Positions 10,815-33,859 of a DNA stretch of 64,000 nucleotides are shown here, one piece after another. Under the pieces are notes generated by a model. That model made no database searches. It was given only the letters and a program-made list of their open reading frames with translations, and was not told where the DNA came from. The position numbers were made by a program, and so were the translations under genes. Every line of letters starts with the position of its first letter. Positions within the stretch are counted from its first letter, which is position 1. This DNA comes from Halobacteriales archaeon YIM A00010 (GTDB lineage: Archaea > Halobacteriota > Halobacteria > Halobacteriales > Haloarculaceae), in assembly GCA_025041175.1 (NCBI GenBank), contig JAKCFJ010000001.1:1612001-1676000 (forward strand). The letters run 5' to 3'.

Positions 10815-11534
10815 TCACTCCTGGAGCGCCGCCTCTTGGAGGGCTTCGTTCAGATCCTCGCGCACCCGTTCGCCGGTGTCGCGGTCGTAGGCGGTCGTGA
10901 CGATCCGGTTTTCCTGCACACTCGACCCGTCCCGAACGAGCAGCCGGACGTTGCCGTTGTCGTCGGCGCGCGTCGCTTTCGCGCGCACCCCCGACTGCGA
11001 ACTGCCGCCGCTCGCGTCGATCGGGCCGGGGACAATCTTTTTCACGTGTGGGTGCTCGGCGATCGTCTCGACGGTTTCCCGCCCGGATCGCCCGCCGATG
11101 AGCGTCGTGTGCGATCCCCCGAGCTTCTCCGAAAGGGATGCGGTGACCACGTCGAGCGCCGGCTTCCCGCGGTGTTCGATGACCGATTCGACGGCATCCT
11201 CGCCCCGAATCCGGTACAGTGGGTAGTGGAGCTGGGTTCTGACAGCGGTCAACACCGACCGATCGCCCGTCGCGTACACCTCCTCGGGCCGCTTTCGGCG
11301 CACGTCGTCTGCGATCAGCCCGGCGAAGTTCCGAAGCTCGACCGGCTCGTTCTCGCCCGTCTCCGGCGTGGTCGTGATCTCACGAGCAGCGACAACGTCC
11401 TCGTCCGACAGCGCCGTCACGCGAGCGCGGTCCCGACCGAGTTCCAGCACGACGGTGTCGGCGTTCGGCGAGCGACACACCAAACAGTAATCGCCCGGCC
11501 GTTCGAGCGGCGACCCACACTGCCGACACACCAT
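10815..11534 (-). CDS. DUF2103 family metal-binding protein
   Basis: A 239-residue protein. The N-terminus has a zinc ribbon (CRQCGSPLERPGDYCLVC: two CxxC pairs), the centre resembles DUF2103 with SHTTLIGGRSGRETVETIAEHPHVKKIVPGPI, and the C-terminus has RADDNGNVRLLVRDGSSVQENRIVTTA. The family is a predicted archaeal metal-binding protein with no known reaction. ATG 11534 puts the zinc ribbon at the very start; 19 codons of open frame upstream are not used. The gene lies upstream of nothing obvious on its strand except tRNA-Pro, 88 bases before its start. Confidence 0.82.
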   Translation of the reverse strand: MVCRQCGSPLERPGDYCLVCRSPNADTVVLELGRDRARVTALSDEDVVAAREITTTPETGENEPVELRNFAGLIADDVRRKRPEEVYATGDRSVLTAVRTQLHYPLYRIRGEDAVESVIEHRGKPALDVVTASLSEKLGGSHTTLIGGRSGRETVETIAEHPHVKKIVPGPIDASGGSSQSGVRAKATRADDNGNVRLLVRDGSSVQENRIVTTAYDRDTGERVREDLNEALQEAALQE

Positions 11535-26207: not shown

Positions 26208-26735
26208 ATGGTCTCTCACGACACGGTCCGAGATGTGCTCGTGCCCGAGTTCGTCGGAGCGAGCGAGAGCGATCCCGTCCCAGCGAGCGCCAGACTGTTA
26301 CTCGAAGAAGGAACCGACCACCTCGTGGTGTTGCGGGGAACCGACCCGGTCGGCGTGGTGAGCACCCGCGATCTGCTCGGGCGGTTCCTCACCGGCGACG
26401 CCACAGAAACGACGCTCGGGGACGTCATGACCACCGACTACGAAACCATTTCCTCCGACGTATCCGTGGACGCGGCCGCCGATCGGTTCGTCGGCTCCTC
26501 TCAGCCGCTGCTCGTCGTCGATAACGACGAACCCATTGGGATTCTGACTGAACGGGATCTCCTGACTGCGCCACACGGCGATCCCTACGAGGAAGCGCTG
26601 CCAGTCGATGAAACCTCGGACAACACCGAGAACGACACCGCGAGCCAGGGGATCTGTGAGGCGTGTGGTGCGTTCACCCGGTCGCTCGCCGTCACCGACG
26701 GGCGATCGTTGTGCGCCGACTGTCTGGACGTGTGA
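26208..26735 (+). CDS. CBS-domain pair protein with C-terminal zinc ribbon
   Basis: A 175-residue protein with two CBS domains (about residues 5-62 and 68-122; motifs LVVLRGTDPVGVVSTRDLL and LVVDNDEPIGILTERDLL), which bind adenine nucleotides in tandem. After an acidic linker the C-terminus has CEACGAFTRSL...CADCL, a zinc ribbon. This combination is common in haloarchaea and suggests a nucleotide-responsive regulator. ATG 26208 follows a TATA-like CATTTTACT at 26177-26185, compatible with a leaderless mRNA. Confidence 0.85.
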   Translation: MVSHDTVRDVLVPEFVGASESDPVPASARLLLEEGTDHLVVLRGTDPVGVVSTRDLLGRFLTGDATETTLGDVMTTDYETISSDVSVDAAADRFVGSSQPLLVVDNDEPIGILTERDLLTAPHGDPYEEALPVDETSDNTENDTASQGICEACGAFTRSLAVTDGRSLCADCLDV

Positions 26736-26871: not shown

Positions 26872-26878
26872 TTTATAT
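26872..26878 (+). promoter_or_regulatory. TATA box for the swapped-domain binding protein
   Basis: TTTATAT 26-32 bases before ATG 26904. It fixes the start and shows the gene keeps a normal promoter. Confidence 0.7.
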
Positions 26879-26903
26879 CTACCCGCACATATTGGTAGGT
26901 GCC

Positions 26904-28244
26904 ATGGTACGTGATATCATGAATCGTAACAGACAGAGACGATCCGTCTACCGCCGCGACGTGTTGCGGGGAATCGGCGCGGTGAGTGTGGGTGGCATGT
27001 TGGGGATTGCGGGGTGTACGACGGAGCAAGACGATGGTGGCGGTGACAACGGCGGTGACACCGATCAGCCCGATACGCTCATTATCATCGGCTATCCGGA
27101 AAGCGGCGTCCAGTTGTTCAAAGATTACTACAGCGACTACGGGACGGACACGCCGATTTTAGTCACCGACGGACTGAACGACGAGGCCCTTCCCGATAAC
27201 GTGGGCCAACAACTCGAGAACGTTCGCGGGACGGCTCCGGCGGCTGCGGGACCGGGAAACGACTTTTTCACCACGCGGTTCAACGAGGAGTACGGTGGCG
27301 ATCCGGGGGTGTTCACGGCACACGCCTACGACGCCACGGCGGTGCTCCTGTTGGCAAGCCTCGCTGCCGGTGCGGACGACGGGCCGGCCATCCGAGACGC
27401 CCTCCGGTCGGTCGCCAACCCCGACGGTCCGGAGTTGGGTCCACAGGATCTTGGGGAAGCGGTCGAGACCGCTGCTACCGGACAGCAGCTCAACTACACG
27501 GGCGCGTCGAGCAGCGTCAACTTCGACGAGAACGGTGATATGGGGGCGGTCTCATACGACATCTTCTCGTACGGGAGTGACGGTATCACGGTCGACGACA
27601 CCGTCCCGTTCGAGGAGGAAAATGTCGAATCGGGGGGTGAACCCCCTGGAGAGGGGAGTGATTCGGGACGGACGGTCAGACTCGGCGCACTCATGGCGCT
27701 CACCGGTGATCTCGCCAGCGTCGGACAGCCCATCCGTGATGGGGCAGTGCTTCCACAGGCCCAACTCCAAGGCAACGTCGATTACACCATCGACATCAAC
27801 GTCGCTGATTCACAGACCGATCCACAGGCCGGGATCAGCGCGGCTAACACGCTCATCAACGGAGGATACCCCGCGATCGTTGGCCCGCTCTCCTCCGGTG
27901 TTAATATGAACGTCAGCCAGCAGTCGTACATTCCCAACGGGATCGTCGGCTGCTCTCCATCCTCGACGTCGCCCGACGTGACTGGATTAGACGACGACGA
28001 TTTCGTCTTTCGAACGGCCCCCAGCGACGTGCTCCAGGGCGAGGTGTTGGCACGGGTCGCAGCCGATGACGTCAGTGCCACTACTGCGGCCACGATGTAC
28101 GTCAACAACGCCTACGGCCAGGCGCTCTCGGACTCGTTCGCAAGTGCGTTCGAAGACGCGGGAGGATCGATGGTCGCTCGAGTGGCGTTCGAAAAAGGAC
28201 AGACCTCCTACTCCTCTAAGCTCCGATCGGCGATGAATCCCTAG
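26904..28244 (+). CDS. Branched-chain amino-acid ABC binding lipoprotein with swapped halves (circular permutation)
   Basis: The 446 residues start with a Tat signal (RRDVLRGIGAVSVGG) and lipobox GIAGC (Cys38). Normal LivJ-type proteins then run from TVRLGALMALTGDL to the C-lobe and end after a strand such as FDENGDMGAVSYDIF. Here the order is reversed. Residues 57-240 are the usual second half (DTLIIIGYPESGVQLFKDYY, AHAYDATAVLLLASL, FDENGDMGAVSYDIF); a Gly/Glu/Ser linker follows at about 241-256; residues 257-446 are the usual first half (TVRLGALMALTGDL, IVGPLSSGVNM, YVNNAYGQALSDSF), ending SSKLRSAMNP at a stop. Both halves are intact, so it may fold as a permuted protein. It is convergent with livHMGF, its presumed transporter. 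Misassembly is the main alternative. Confidence 0.85.
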   Translation: MVRDIMNRNRQRRSVYRRDVLRGIGAVSVGGMLGIAGCTTEQDDGGGDNGGDTDQPDTLIIIGYPESGVQLFKDYYSDYGTDTPILVTDGLNDEALPDNVGQQLENVRGTAPAAAGPGNDFFTTRFNEEYGGDPGVFTAHAYDATAVLLLASLAAGADDGPAIRDALRSVANPDGPELGPQDLGEAVETAATGQQLNYTGASSSVNFDENGDMGAVSYDIFSYGSDGITVDDTVPFEEENVESGGEPPGEGSDSGRTVRLGALMALTGDLASVGQPIRDGAVLPQAQLQGNVDYTIDINVADSQTDPQAGISAANTLINGGYPAIVGPLSSGVNMNVSQQSYIPNGIVGCSPSSTSPDVTGLDDDDFVFRTAPSDVLQGEVLARVAADDVSATTAATMYVNNAYGQALSDSFASAFEDAGGSMVARVAFEKGQTSYSSKLRSAMNP

Positions 28245-28405: not shown

Positions 28406-29154
28406 CAGCCACCGAGGAACTGTTGTCTGACGGTCTCGTCCTCGAGCAGCGTTTCTCCCGTGTCCATGTATCTGTTTTCGCCCTGGACGAGCACGTATCC
28501 CCGGTCACACCGGCTGAGTGCCTCTTTGGCGTTCTGTTCGACCAGCAACACGGCGGTGCCGGCGTCGTTGATCGCCCCGATGCGATCGAACATCTCGGCG
28601 ACCAGATCGGGTGCAAGCCCCGCCGATGGCTCGTCGAGCAACAGCAGCTGTGGATCGAGCATCAGCGCCCGCCCCATTGCGAGCATCTGCCGTTGGCCAC
28701 CCGAGAGCGTGCCCGCCTTCTGTGATTGGCGCTCGGCAAGGATTGGAAATCGGTCGAACACGATCTCCATGCGGTCTTCCGGCACCGAATCGAGGATGTA
28801 CGCTCCCATTTCGAGGTTTTCACGCGTCGTCAGTGTCGGAAAGATATTCCCGTTCTGTGGCACGTAGCTGATTCCGTGATGGATGATCGTTTCCGGGTCC
28901 TGCCCGGCGATCTCCGCCCCATCGAACCGGATCGTTCCCCCCATGTGTGTGGTCAGCCCGAACACCGACTTCATCACGGTGGATTTTCCGGCCCCGTTCG
29001 GCCCGACGATCGCGACGTACGCCCCGGCTCCCACGTCGAGATCCACGCCGTTCAGAACTTGTAGCTCGCCGTATCCCGAATCGAGATCCCTGATCGAAAG
29101 CAGTCCCGGCTCGTCGGTTCGCGTCGCGTCGCTGGTTGTCGTTTGTGTGCTCAT
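28405..29154 (-). CDS. livF: Branched-chain amino-acid ABC transporter ATP-binding protein LivF
   Basis: A 249-residue ATPase. Walker A GPNGAGKST, signature LSGGQRQM, Walker B LLLLDEPSAGLAP, and the family-specific GISYVPQ stretch mark LivF. It energises uptake of branched-chain amino acids with LivG, M and H. ATG 29154 overlaps the livG stop (ATGA), so it is last in the livHMGF operon. Open frame upstream of this ATG is inside livG and unused. The stop abuts the 15-bp inverted repeat. Confidence 0.93.
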   Translation of the reverse strand: MSTQTTTSDATRTDEPGLLSIRDLDSGYGELQVLNGVDLDVGAGAYVAIVGPNGAGKSTVMKSVFGLTTHMGGTIRFDGAEIAGQDPETIIHHGISYVPQNGNIFPTLTTRENLEMGAYILDSVPEDRMEIVFDRFPILAERQSQKAGTLSGGQRQMLAMGRALMLDPQLLLLDEPSAGLAPDLVAEMFDRIGAINDAGTAVLLVEQNAKEALSRCDRGYVLVQGENRYMDTGETLLEDETVRQQFLGG

Positions 29155-30056
29155 ATATCCGCCCCGAGATACGCTTCGATGACCTGTTCGTCCACTCGGA
29201 TCTCTTCGGAGGAGCCAACCGTGAGTATCGATCCTTGATGCATGACGATGATCGGGTCGCAGTGGTTCATGATAACGTCCATGTCGTGTTCGACCAGCAG
29301 GAACGTGTAGCCCGAGGCACACAGCTCGTGGAGTCGTTCGAGGAGCTTCGTTTCGAGCGTCGGATTCACACCGGCGAGCGGTTCGTCGAGCAGGATCATC
29401 TCCGGATCAGCCATGAGCGCACGGGCCAGTTCCAGCAGCTTCCGTTGCCCGCCCGAGAGCGACCCGGCGTACTCCCCGGCGAGGTGATCCAGCTCGAAGC
29501 GTTCGAGCAGCTCCCACGCTCGGTCCCTGATCGCTCGTTCCTGCCGGACGACGTCCGCCCGTAGCCCCGGCGTCACCGCGCGAATGAGCGACTCTCCGGA
29601 CTGTCCGCCTGGTGCGAGCATCATGTTTTCGAGCACGGTCATTTCCTCGAGCTCGCGGGCGATCTGAAACGTGCGAATCAACCCCCTGTTTGCGATCTCG
29701 TGTGGGCTCTGTCCCGTGACTTCCTCGCCGTTGAAGTAGACGATGCCGTTCGTGGGGGTGAGTGCACCAGTGATACAGTTAAACGTCGTCGATTTCCCGG
29801 CCCCGTTCGGTCCGATGAGTCCTGTCAGCGTTCCTTCCTCGACAGCGAACGAGACCCCATCCACCGCCCTAATCCCACCGAACGTCTTCTGTAGATCCTG
29901 AACCCGGAGCACAAGCCCGCGTGGCGTTCGCTTTGCGTTCCGTTCGACCGCCGACTCCGCGCGTTCTCCCACATCGATCTCTGAGGCATCGATGTCGGCC
30001 GGGAATCCGTTGCCAGGGACCGACTCCGCATCGGTGTTCGTGTTCGTATCACTCAT
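29151..30056 (-). CDS. livG: Branched-chain amino-acid ABC transporter ATP-binding protein LivG
   Basis: A 301-residue ATPase. A disordered acidic N-terminus of about 50 residues precedes Walker A GPNGAGKSTTFN, TFQIARELEEMTVLENMM (Q-loop region), signature LSGGQRKLLELARAL, Walker B ILLDEPLAGVNP and the H-loop VEHDMD. The LivG-specific C-terminal extension is present. ATG 30056 overlaps the last codons of livM by 8 bases; the 3' end overlaps livF by 4. Confidence 0.93.
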   Translation of the reverse strand: MSDTNTNTDAESVPGNGFPADIDASEIDVGERAESAVERNAKRTPRGLVLRVQDLQKTFGGIRAVDGVSFAVEEGTLTGLIGPNGAGKSTTFNCITGALTPTNGIVYFNGEEVTGQSPHEIANRGLIRTFQIARELEEMTVLENMMLAPGGQSGESLIRAVTPGLRADVVRQERAIRDRAWELLERFELDHLAGEYAGSLSGGQRKLLELARALMADPEMILLDEPLAGVNPTLETKLLERLHELCASGYTFLLVEHDMDVIMNHCDPIIVMHQGSILTVGSSEEIRVDEQVIEAYLGADI

Positions 30057-31359
30057 CGTCCTCACCCCCCGCTGGTTTCGAGAGCGGAACGCTCGATGCG
30101 GTCTCGATGCGGTGACCGAACAGCCCGTCCGGACGGTGTTGCATCAGATACACGAGGAGCACGCCGACCGCGATGAACCGAAGCGATCCGATGTTGGCGA
30201 AACAGTAGGAGAGAAACGCCGTGACATCGAGCTGACCGAGCGCATCGACCGCAGCGACAAACGTGTTCGGGGTCGCCGTCGACCCCCCAATGATGGCCTG
30301 GATTCGATCGAGGGCAGCAGCGCTGTTCTGTTCGAAAAACTGGGGCAGATAGTACAGCAGCCCGGCGAAGATCGCCCCCCCGACGACGCTCCCAGTGTTC
30401 GATCCCGAACCACCGATGATGAGCGCGATGAAAATGTAGAACGTGACGATCGGTCGGAACGAAAGCGGGCTGGCATAGCCGTCGCTCCCGAACCAGAGGA
30501 TACCGCCAAGCCCCATCATCCCACACCCCACGGCGAACACTTTGATCTTGAACCGGCGGGTGTTCTTTCCGAGCGAGTCGGCGACGAGTTCGTCCTCACG
30601 GATTGCCTTCAACACCCGGCCAAAGGGCGATTTCCCGATTCGCTGGACGAACACGTAGCAGGCGGCGACGACGACGACGAGTATGAGTGTGTACGCGACG
30701 TTTCGCACCACGATCGGTCGTGTGACCCCGACCGCAGCGGCAGCGTCGAGCGCCGCGCGGCCCATCTGGCCCTCGAAAAACGCGTTGATCGGCGTCTGTG
30801 GATTGGTCGGGATGTTGATCCCGCTCGCGCCGCCGGTCCCCACTGGGGTGCCGAAAAGCGAGAACTCCTGAAAGACCGTGGAGTTGTACGTGAGACGGAT
30901 GATTTCCGACAGCGCAAGCGTCACGATCGCAAGATAGTCAGCCTCCAGCCGAAGCGCTGGGAGCGCAGCAACGACGCCGACGAGCGCGGCAGCGGCCGTT
31001 CCGGCGACGATCCCGACCCACAACGGCAGCCCCAGACCCGGAACGGTGCCCGCTCCTGGCGAGGTCGGCCCGGTGACGATCGCCATCGTGTACACACCGA
31101 CCGCCATAAACCCGGCGACGCCGATGTTGAACAGTCCCGTGTACCCCCAGTGGAGGTTCAACGCGAGCACCAACAACGCGTAGACAGCGGTGAAGTAGGT
31201 GACTGTCCGGAGCGTGTCGACGATCCCAGACACACCGAACCCCAGAGACACTGTTAGGACGGTGAAGATGCTGTACAGCCCGAGCATCACGCCGAAAATG
31301 ATCAATCCGTCTGGAAGCGTTTTGACCCGCGTTTGGAAGCGTTCTCTCGCGGTGCTCAT
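30049..31359 (-). CDS. livM: Branched-chain amino-acid ABC transporter permease LivM
   Basis: A 436-residue permease with about ten membrane helices. Family features are LNLHWGYTGLFNIGVAGFMAVGVYT, ALPALRLEADYLAIVTLALSEIIRLT and the EAA-like loop LKAIREDELVADSLGKNTRRFKIKVFAVG. The start ATG 31359 overlaps the livH stop; the track of open frame before it lies within livH in another frame. An unusual insertion of about 80 residues between LIIGGSGSNTGSV and the last helices (residues about 340-400) is longer than in bacterial LivM. Confidence 0.9.
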   Translation of the reverse strand: MSTARERFQTRVKTLPDGLIIFGVMLGLYSIFTVLTVSLGFGVSGIVDTLRTVTYFTAVYALLVLALNLHWGYTGLFNIGVAGFMAVGVYTMAIVTGPTSPGAGTVPGLGLPLWVGIVAGTAAAALVGVVAALPALRLEADYLAIVTLALSEIIRLTYNSTVFQEFSLFGTPVGTGGASGINIPTNPQTPINAFFEGQMGRAALDAAAAVGVTRPIVVRNVAYTLILVVVVAACYVFVQRIGKSPFGRVLKAIREDELVADSLGKNTRRFKIKVFAVGCGMMGLGGILWFGSDGYASPLSFRPIVTFYIFIALIIGGSGSNTGSVVGGAIFAGLLYYLPQFFEQNSAAALDRIQAIIGGSTATPNTFVAAVDALGQLDVTAFLSYCFANIGSLRFIAVGVLLVYLMQHRPDGLFGHRIETASSVPLSKPAGGEDDE

Positions 31360-32465
31360 GCCGTTTTCACCCCTCCGAACAGTCCTTCCGGCCGAACGAG
31401 CAAGACGACGATCAACACCGCGAACACGGCAGCGCGGGTGAGATCGGAGGGGAGCCAAATCAGCGCGAGCTTGTCGACGATCCCGATACACAGCCCGCCG
31501 GCCATGGCACCGTAGATCGAACCAATGCCACCGAGAATCACCGCCGAGAAGATCAACAGCAGGAGCGTCCATCCGAAGTTGAAGACGATCGTTCCTCCTT
31601 CGAGCACCAACAGGTAGCCGGCGACACCGGTGAGTCCGCCGCCCACGATCCACGTCATTCGGGTTACACGCTCGACCGGAATCCCGCTCACGCGCGCGAG
31701 ATCCTTGTTGTCGGCCATCGCCCGCATCGCGGTTCCGAGCTTCGTGAACTGCAAGAGCACGTGGACGCCGACCATCAACACTCCGCCCACGACGAGCAGC
31801 GTCCACTCGTGGCTCGTGCGGGTGATGATTCCGAGCGCCGTGATCTTGGTTGGACCCGCGGTGACGCCGTGTTTACCCGTCTGCCAGACGAACGCGATGA
31901 GATACCGGAGCACGAGCGCCACGCCAATGCTGGCGATGAGCAACGAAATTCCGTCCGCATCGCGCATCGGACGGTAGACGAGCCGGTCGAGCACCAACGT
32001 CAGCACGATCGTCCCAGCCGCCGCAGCGATCAACCCCACGACGGTCGCGATCGGCGTTCCGAGCACGGTGAGACCGAGATTGCTGCTGAGAAGAAACCGC
32101 GTCGTGAGATCGGCCCCGCCACTCACGACCAGGTACGCTGCCGTCCACCCGACGAACGCGCCGCCGGTGATGTAATCTCCGTGGGCGAAATTGGCGAAGT
32201 TCAGAATGCTGTAGGTCATCGACAGCCCGACTGCCGCGAGTCCGACCGCCATCCCCACGATCACCCCATCGAGAACGAACGCCGTCAGCGCTGCTGGTGC
32301 GAGTGATCCTCCCAACGCCTTCGTTCCGAACACGAACAGTTCCGTTCCGAGAAGCTTCAGTACGAGATCGACAACCAAAAGCACACAAAACGCCACAACG
32401 AGCGTCAACCACGGGCGTTGACGCCCGAACCCGAGCATTCGCGTGTGTGTAATACGCATACCCAT
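31356..32465 (-). CDS. livH: Branched-chain amino-acid ABC transporter permease LivH
   Basis: A 369-residue permease with about nine membrane helices. Family signatures are GLSMTYSILNFANFAHGDYITGGAFVGW, LVYRPMRDADGISLLIASIGVALVLRY, MRAMADNKDLARVSGIPVERV (cytoplasmic loop contacting the ATPase) and AVILGGIGSIYGAMAGGL. First gene of livHMGF. The start is ATG 32465, or ATG 32459 two codons later; a TATA box at 32501-32509 predicts a 10-15-base leader. The usual binding-protein gene is not upstream; the only candidate is the permuted one converging from 26904. Confidence 0.92.
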   Translation of the reverse strand: MGMRITHTRMLGFGRQRPWLTLVVAFCVLLVVDLVLKLLGTELFVFGTKALGGSLAPAALTAFVLDGVIVGMAVGLAAVGLSMTYSILNFANFAHGDYITGGAFVGWTAAYLVVSGGADLTTRFLLSSNLGLTVLGTPIATVVGLIAAAAGTIVLTLVLDRLVYRPMRDADGISLLIASIGVALVLRYLIAFVWQTGKHGVTAGPTKITALGIITRTSHEWTLLVVGGVLMVGVHVLLQFTKLGTAMRAMADNKDLARVSGIPVERVTRMTWIVGGGLTGVAGYLLVLEGGTIVFNFGWTLLLLIFSAVILGGIGSIYGAMAGGLCIGIVDKLALIWLPSDLTRAAVFAVLIVVLLVRPEGLFGGVKTA

Positions 32466-32509: not shown

Positions 32510-32659
32510 ATCCGTGTCCCGAGTTTGTCGTTCACGAATACCATCTTTTCTGTGGTTGGATTCGAATACCACGGTCGACGGCGTTTGACAGCGTGTGTTT
32601 CATCACCCCGTCGGGCGGCAAACACAACATCTTTCGTAGACCGCACAGGATGCACGATC

Positions 32660-33859
32660 ATGATACGGACGCTCGATGATCTCGACGCGGTGGGGACAGC
32701 GGTCGGGGTGCGCGTCGACATCAACAGCCCGCTTTCCGATGACGGGGAGTTGGCCGACGACGCCCGACTACGGGCGCACGTCGGCACGCTTTCGGAACTC
32801 ACAGATCGGGACGCGCGCGTTGCCGTGCTCGCTCACCAGGGCCGGCCCGCAGGCGATGAATTCACGCCGCTTTCAGCCCACGCCCGTCGGCTCGACGAGC
32901 TACTCGATGCGCCCGTGGAGTACGTTGACGCCACGTTCTGCGGGGCGGCTCGGGATCGGATCGAGGCGCTCGAGAACGGATCGGTGCTCGTGCTCGAAAA
33001 CACGCGGTTCTACAGCGAGGAGAACATGTCGTTCGACCCGGCTGGCGCGGCCGAGACCCACCTCGTCGAGCGTCTGTCAGCAGTGCTCGACGCGTTCGTG
33101 AACGACGCGTTCGCCGCTGCTCACCGCTCCCAGCCGTCGATCGTGGGTTTCACCGAGCGGCTTCCCAGCTTCGGGGGGCGCGTGATGGAGCGCGAACTCG
33201 ATGCACTGGGCGAGATCGGTGAGCGTCCGTCCCCTCGCGTGTACGTCCTCGGCGGGGCGAAGGTCGACGACTCGATCGAGATCGCCGAGACCGTCCTCCA
33301 GTCGGGAATCGCCGATGCGGTCCTCACGACGGGCGTGGTCGGGAACGCCTTCCTCCACGCTGCCGGGGTTTCACTCGGGGAGGAAACGGAGTCGATCATC
33401 ACTTCACGCGCGCGTGATCGGCTCGATCTCGCCGAGGAACTGCTCGATCGGTACCCCGACCGTCTCCACGCCCCGTCCGACATCGCCATCGAACGCGACG
33501 GCGAGCGCGTCGAGCGTCAGGTCGATTCGCTTCCGGTCGATGAGCCGGCGCTGGATGTCGGGCAGGAAACGATCGATCGGTACGCCGAGGTGTTCGAAAC
33601 CGCCGGCACGGTGGTTCTCAACGGACCGGCCGGGGTGTTCGAGAACGACCGGTTCGCCGTCGGGACCGAGAAGCTGTACACCGCCGCGACTGACGCCGGG
33701 TTTTCGATCGTCGGTGGTGGGGATACGGCTGCTGCCATGCGTCGGCTCGAGCTGTCCGGATTCGACCACGTCAGCACCGGCGGCGGTGCGGCGCTCGCGC
33801 TGCTGACCGGCGAGCGGCTCCCGGCGGTCGCGGCGCTCGAATCCGGGGCCGAGGACTGA
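32660..33859 (+). CDS. pgk: Phosphoglycerate kinase
   Basis: Transfers phosphate between 1,3-bisphosphoglycerate and ADP in glycolysis and gluconeogenesis. The 399 residues contain the N-lobe substrate site VRVDINSPLSDDG and LAHQGRP, the hinge VNDAFAAAHRSQPS, the nucleotide lobe YVLGGAKVDDS, and the C-lobe IVGGGDTAAAMRR with STGGGAALALLTG. The N-terminus MIRTLDDLD at 32660 is chosen on family length; 45 codons of open frame precede it in the promoter region. Its stop overlaps the start of the downstream GNAT gene (TGATG). Confidence 0.94.
   Translation: MIRTLDDLDAVGTAVGVRVDINSPLSDDGELADDARLRAHVGTLSELTDRDARVAVLAHQGRPAGDEFTPLSAHARRLDELLDAPVEYVDATFCGAARDRIEALENGSVLVLENTRFYSEENMSFDPAGAAETHLVERLSAVLDAFVNDAFAAAHRSQPSIVGFTERLPSFGGRVMERELDALGEIGERPSPRVYVLGGAKVDDSIEIAETVLQSGIADAVLTTGVVGNAFLHAAGVSLGEETESIITSRARDRLDLAEELLDRYPDRLHAPSDIAIERDGERVERQVDSLPVDEPALDVGQETIDRYAEVFETAGTVVLNGPAGVFENDRFAVGTEKLYTAATDAGFSIVGGGDTAAAMRRLELSGFDHVSTGGGAALALLTGERLPAVAALESGAED

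Follow-up and report, generated by a model that had tools for sequence, protein, structure and literature searches.

The window, a stretch of 64,000 nucleotides from Halobacteriales archaeon YIM A00010, contains a gene for a LivJ-type substrate-binding lipoprotein that reads as one unbroken frame of 446 amino acids (26904-28241; stop TAG, 28242-28244) and that converges with genes for two ATPases and two permeases (Table 1). The TATA-like box in front of it, TTTATATC, is one that we take to be the promoter of a leaderless haloarchaeal transcript. In NCBIfam the four neighbours match LivF, LivG, LivM and LivH or their urea-importer equivalents, all under the curated cut-offs, and for this reason the candidate ligands span three classes (branched-chain amino acid, amide or urea). 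Two other genes lie close by: a CBS-domain gene with a C-terminal zinc-ribbon-like motif (window 26208-26735), which relatives often keep directly upstream of the binding-protein gene, and beyond livH a phosphoglycerate kinase (PGK) gene (window 32525-33859), kept there in many relatives.

Table 1 Features of the binding-protein locus, in window coordinates.
Feature	Position	Strand	Basis
Predicted TATA-like box TTTATATC, ~25-32 nt 5' of ATG	26872..26879	+	Sequence reading
Type-A circular permutant of a LivJ-type substrate-binding lipoprotein: signal, C-half, linker, N-half	26904..28244	+	Sequence reading, Pfam, alignments
Signal sequence: twin arginine RRDVLRG and lipobox GIAGC, Cys38 at 27015-27017	26904..27017	+	Sequence reading
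Spacer rich in Gly and Asp, from the lipid anchor to the folded domain	27018..27065	+	Sequence reading; matching spacers in relatives
C-terminal half of binding protein, residues 55-236, now in front	27066..27611	+	Pfam, relatives, 3td9 alignment
New linker EEENVESGGEPPGEGSDS, residues 237-254 (18 residues), old C-terminus to old N-terminus	27612..27665	+	Relatives
N-terminal half of binding protein, residues 255-446, now at back	27666..28241	+	Pfam, relatives, 3td9 alignment
LivF-type ATPase, convergent with binding-protein gene	28408..29202	-	LivF/UrtE best NCBIfam matches, under curated cut-offs; synteny
LivG-type ATPase	29154..30065	-	Synteny and NCBIfam
LivM-type permease	30052..31500	-	Synteny and NCBIfam
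LivH-type permease	31359..32465	-	Synteny and NCBIfam

An earlier, sequence-only reading of this gene had described a signal peptide with a lipobox, then the two halves of a LivJ protein in reverse order with a linker between them, and all of these parts were recovered here, with no break of the reading frame between the halves. The Pfam family Peripla_BP_6 matched the window protein with 119 bits (cut-off 31.7) in two separate stretches that cover both halves. When the trimmed window protein (window 27057-28241) was aligned to the solved Thermotoga binding protein 3td9, chain residues 15-201 were matched by query residues 205-393 and chain residues 204-352 by query residues 4-173; thus, the start of the window protein is the point at which its own C-terminus would normally continue. 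The NCBIfam model for LivJ/LivK (PRK15404) matched one half only, with 66 bits, and did not reach its curated cut-off of 477.

The residues that we take, from LIVBP numbering, to be equivalent to the LivJ pocket positions S77, T101, Y150 and D226 are invariant or nearly so in normal-order proteins and in both permuted forms described below (types A and B), and the presumed equivalent of Y201 is kept in 79-100% of each. Among Haloarcula permutants dN/dS is ~0.04-0.08, a sign of purifying selection. Since pocket-motif residues and purifying selection are both kept, the window permutant very probably serves the neighbouring LivHMGF importer as its working binding protein, and the earlier suggestion of a functional circular permutant accords with the intact frame and with the close relatives described next. 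Alignment to solved relatives, together with the known fold of such proteins, suggests that the lipid anchor enters at the second lobe in the permutant. AlphaFold models from alignments of 7 and 5 sequences were of low confidence, with a pLDDT of 37.5 for the permutant and of 47.7 for a control in the normal order.

Swapped and normal orders at one haloarchaeal locus

Same-genus genomes carry the swapped order of the window gene over its full length at 66-67% identity, and co-linear homologues in a single open frame occur in many genomes at 47-67% identity; among those with the swapped order are the genomes of Halobacteriales archaeon YIM A00013 and of five Haloarcula species. Across 392 sampled genomes of the order, the best scores were of two kinds: one match over the full length, as for the swapped order, or two half-matches, as for the normal order. 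A doubled-circle query, in which the circular sequence is held twice so that the start of a match tells the orders apart, was then applied to seven haloarchaeal families. By hand count of the resulting tables, no fewer than 208 of the 522 genomes have the window gene's order, called type A, in which the C-half comes first: 47/146 in the window gene's own family, at least 109/170 in family f4, 24/125 in f7, 15/28 in f17, 7/18 in f5, 5/9 in f6 and 1/26 in f12. Type-A breakpoints cluster, all opening within a few residues of one junction, and the linker is typically 12-20 amino acids long in all permutants of the spacing survey. Because the same swap is kept in hundreds of genomes, the window gene is confirmed as a real swapped-order gene, far beyond what chance would give. 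Outside the haloarchaea, both in other members of the phylum and in Chloroflexota relatives, each half gave its own separate match, as expected of the normal order, and every non-haloarchaeal relative that was read had that order.

Normal, type-A and type-B genes stand at the same place in most loci read, convergent with livF-livG-livM-livH. Within genus g43 one genome (G721) has type A and three (G720, G722 and G377) have the normal order; genus g9 has normal-order genes, type-A genes of two kinds and type-B genes, and so all three orders at one locus. The sequence-only reading had held that normal order in relatives would speak for an assembly error; some relatives do have it at the same locus, but because the order has truly changed and not because the assembly of the window is at fault. 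That reading had missed how widespread the order is, its several phylogenetic origins at one junction and the presence of a second opening. Some genomes hold both orders, and a search of the window genome found no close normal-order paralogue, its other matches having 21-32% identity.

Two tandem type-A genes stand beside livF at L074, L075 and L076 (genus g46) and also at L218 and L219; in L074-L076 one gene of each pair is without the lipobox cysteine, and its product may be secreted and not lipid-anchored. At L110 (G187:C2:2081231-2083867) a type-A gene is broken within its N-half, with ~1.4 kb between the parts, probably through insertion of a mobile element. In the window genome itself, contig C4 (812,767 bases) carries equal-score matches at 10908-11447 and 806328-806867 (L005 and L004), near its opposite ends, which suggests either a duplicated stretch or the unmerged ends of a circular replicon.

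The second opening, type B, was found by the same query and hand count in 7 of the 522 genomes (G017, G755, G754, G750, G324, G836 and G837). Its order is signal, N2, C-half, linker, N1; within the N-half, the first helix (AAELPA) lies on one side of the opening and the second strand on the other. Type-B proteins share their linker with the main type-A clade, and all seven proteins have regained the two-residue spacing between N- and C-halves that is seen in normal-order proteins. In two of the three type-B groups a few residues seem to occur at both tail and head (in G837, a tail NGEI and a head SEIG), the kind of leftover expected from trimming a duplicated gene, though this is no more than a hint.

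Number of origins and competing explanations

In trees built after every sequence had been restored to normal order, permutants did not form one clade: they fell at first into four type-A clades among normal-order orthologues, and denser sampling gave five, with type B at three places within the main type-A clade. Orders were still interleaved in trees from either half alone, which need 3-4 changes. AU tests, whose groupings were chosen after the trees had been seen, a choice that weakens their p-values, rejected a single clade of all permutants (p 0.00026 and 0.00034), of the VGVD clade with the main clade (p 0.00056), with the Haloarcula clade (p 0.00021) or with the window clade (p 0.0002), and of all permutants minus VGVD (p 0.022). 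The main clade is weakly set apart from the window, Haloarcula and g43 clades (p 0.02-0.05), its union with Haloarcula or with the window clade being borderline (p 0.053 and 0.047, respectively), and a shared origin of the window permutants with those of Haloarcula or g43 was not rejected, leaving these three clades statistically inseparable. For type B, a single clade was rejected (p 0.0057), as was the grouping of f7 type B with either kind of f1 type B (p 0.0095 and 0.002); the two f1 kinds were not separable from each other (0.34). Two origins of type A and two of type B are a firm minimum, and three to five origins of type A are likely. We therefore lean, with moderate confidence, towards the view that haloarchaea have permuted an orthologous binding-protein gene at one fixed locus several times over, always at a single junction, and that permuted genes were re-permuted at a second site.

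Alternatively, a single ancient permutation could have made the type-A frame, gene transfer could have spread it, and gene conversion from normal-order paralogues could have overwritten the cores of some permuted genes, whose independent origin would then be an appearance only. In favour of this, both orders occur together in some genomes, and since gene and species groupings disagree, gene transfer does occur. Breakpoint, linker length and short C-terminal tail are alike across clades, and the similar linker lengths and the one residue, often Gln, before the stop in several separate type-A clades could hint at shared descent. We consider this unlikely, however, because the VGVD N-half (starting SFxAxVGVLMPE and ending SQWSxVLN) matches the normal-order gene at L032 right up to the breakpoint, where conversion into a permuted gene would find no homologous flank, a pattern that favours separate events over conversion. 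The VGVD sequences also stand apart from other permutants in both half-trees, and thus two precise conversions per lineage would be required.

Permuted forms are present in most well-sampled haloarchaeal families, as they would be after a single deep haloarchaeal permutation with the normal-order haloarchaeal genes as reversals. This is still harder to uphold and we regard it as highly improbable: all non-haloarchaeal relatives read have the normal order, gains cost fewer changes under an outgroup root, and the N-C junction is exactly two residues in 52 of 53 normal-order haloarchaeal proteins, so that every reversal would need to have restored it precisely. An assembly error, a local rearrangement in one strain or a decaying pseudogene, for which the unusual order itself is the sole support, is ruled out for practical purposes by the same order in the same-genus genomes and in hundreds of other independent ones with intact frames, and by a dN/dS well below 1.

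Route of permutation and relation to known proteins

We consider it probable, from the combined comparisons, that the window gene encodes a functional circularly permuted LivJ-type lipoprotein for LivHMGF whose order has arisen more than once in haloarchaea. As a type I (LivJ/HAAT-like) lipoprotein, it would bring ligand to the importer encoded convergently beside it; the linker would join the old N- and C-termini, and the new termini would lie in the second lobe, in the loop before the strand xPDxLxVIGYP, as judged by alignment to solved relatives. Recurrent permutation at the orthologous locus would, with normal order presumably ancestral, have opened the same type-A junction in at least two and probably three to five haloarchaeal lineages, and at least two lineages inside the main type-A group would then have re-opened the chain in a first-lobe loop to give type B.

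The most likely route is that the mature domain was duplicated in tandem and in frame and that both ends were then trimmed. Permutation by duplication, in which the redundant ends of an in-frame tandem duplicate are lost, is the standard model (PMC3320104), and it fits the permutants in that their linkers look like a C-terminal tail fused to a lipoprotein spacer. The loci read contained no double-length duplication intermediates and, apart from tandem gene copies, no significant second-copy remnants 3' of the stop, and so the duplication step is one that we infer. Long read-through matches also came up in the genome searches; closer inspection showed them to be spurious. The sequence-only reading had proposed a microhomology join from a CCC before both the junction and the stop, which we abandon. 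Normal-order relatives have two residues between the helix end (ALx) and Pro-Asp in 52 of 53 cases, and the final Pro of SAMNP before the stop is therefore not the Pro of QPDTL; close relatives have Q or P as the final residue at this position. A permutation common to relatives at ~67% identity is, in addition, too old for marks of a join to persist in the DNA.

Natural permutation of a binding protein is already known from TpMglB-2 (Tp0684) of Treponema, which with its relatives has been proposed as type Ic or cluster Bc; its crystal structure is bilobed and biophysical data show glucose binding (PMC4990184). TpMglB-2 and, by sequence, the window protein are alike in being lipid-anchored, permuted type I (cluster B) proteins with a new connection from old C- to old N-terminus. 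They differ in family and host, TpMglB-2 belonging to the sugar-binding MglB family of spirochaetes and Gram-positive bacteria and the window protein being LivJ-like and haloarchaeal, and also in the opening, which lies after the third N-lobe strand (~residue 65 of EcMglB) in TpMglB-2 but at the junction of N- and C-halves in the window protein. Haloarchaeal openings, in the second lobe (type A) or before the second N-lobe strand (type B), have several origins at one locus, and both haloarchaeal halves align at ~50-60% identity, whereas the permuted segment of TpMglB-2 has 13% (PMC4990184).

Compared with LivJ, the Leu- and Leu/Ile/Val-binding proteins and other HAAT importer proteins (PF13458; 1usg, 2liv, 3td9 and 4n0q), the permutant has homologous halves and shares the pocket motifs and the LivHMGF neighbourhood, but has the opposite order of halves, a new linker and new termini. 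DNA methyltransferases and swaposins are other natural permutations for which duplication followed by trimming is the usual model, with intermediates documented for the methyltransferases (PMC3320104); unlike these, the permuted haloarchaeal genes stay orthologues at one conserved locus, and recurrent order changes can thus be traced among close species. In the open-access literature searched, we came across no account of a LivJ-type permutant from haloarchaea, and within that scope the family concerned (LivJ), the places of opening and the repeated origins appear to be new.

Linear profile searches catch half of each such protein, and permuted binding proteins are therefore probably under-annotated. 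As a rule, a natural circular permutation is ancient, happened once and comes into view only after its family has diverged. With normal, type-A and type-B orthologues at one locus, the route of permutation, the recurrence of its junction and its effects on folding, anchoring and transport become testable in close relatives, and the finding is relevant to the idea, put forward for TpMglB-2, that membrane tethering favours permuted binding proteins. If true, recurrent permutation and re-permutation would make this haloarchaeal locus a natural, ongoing experiment in chain topology.
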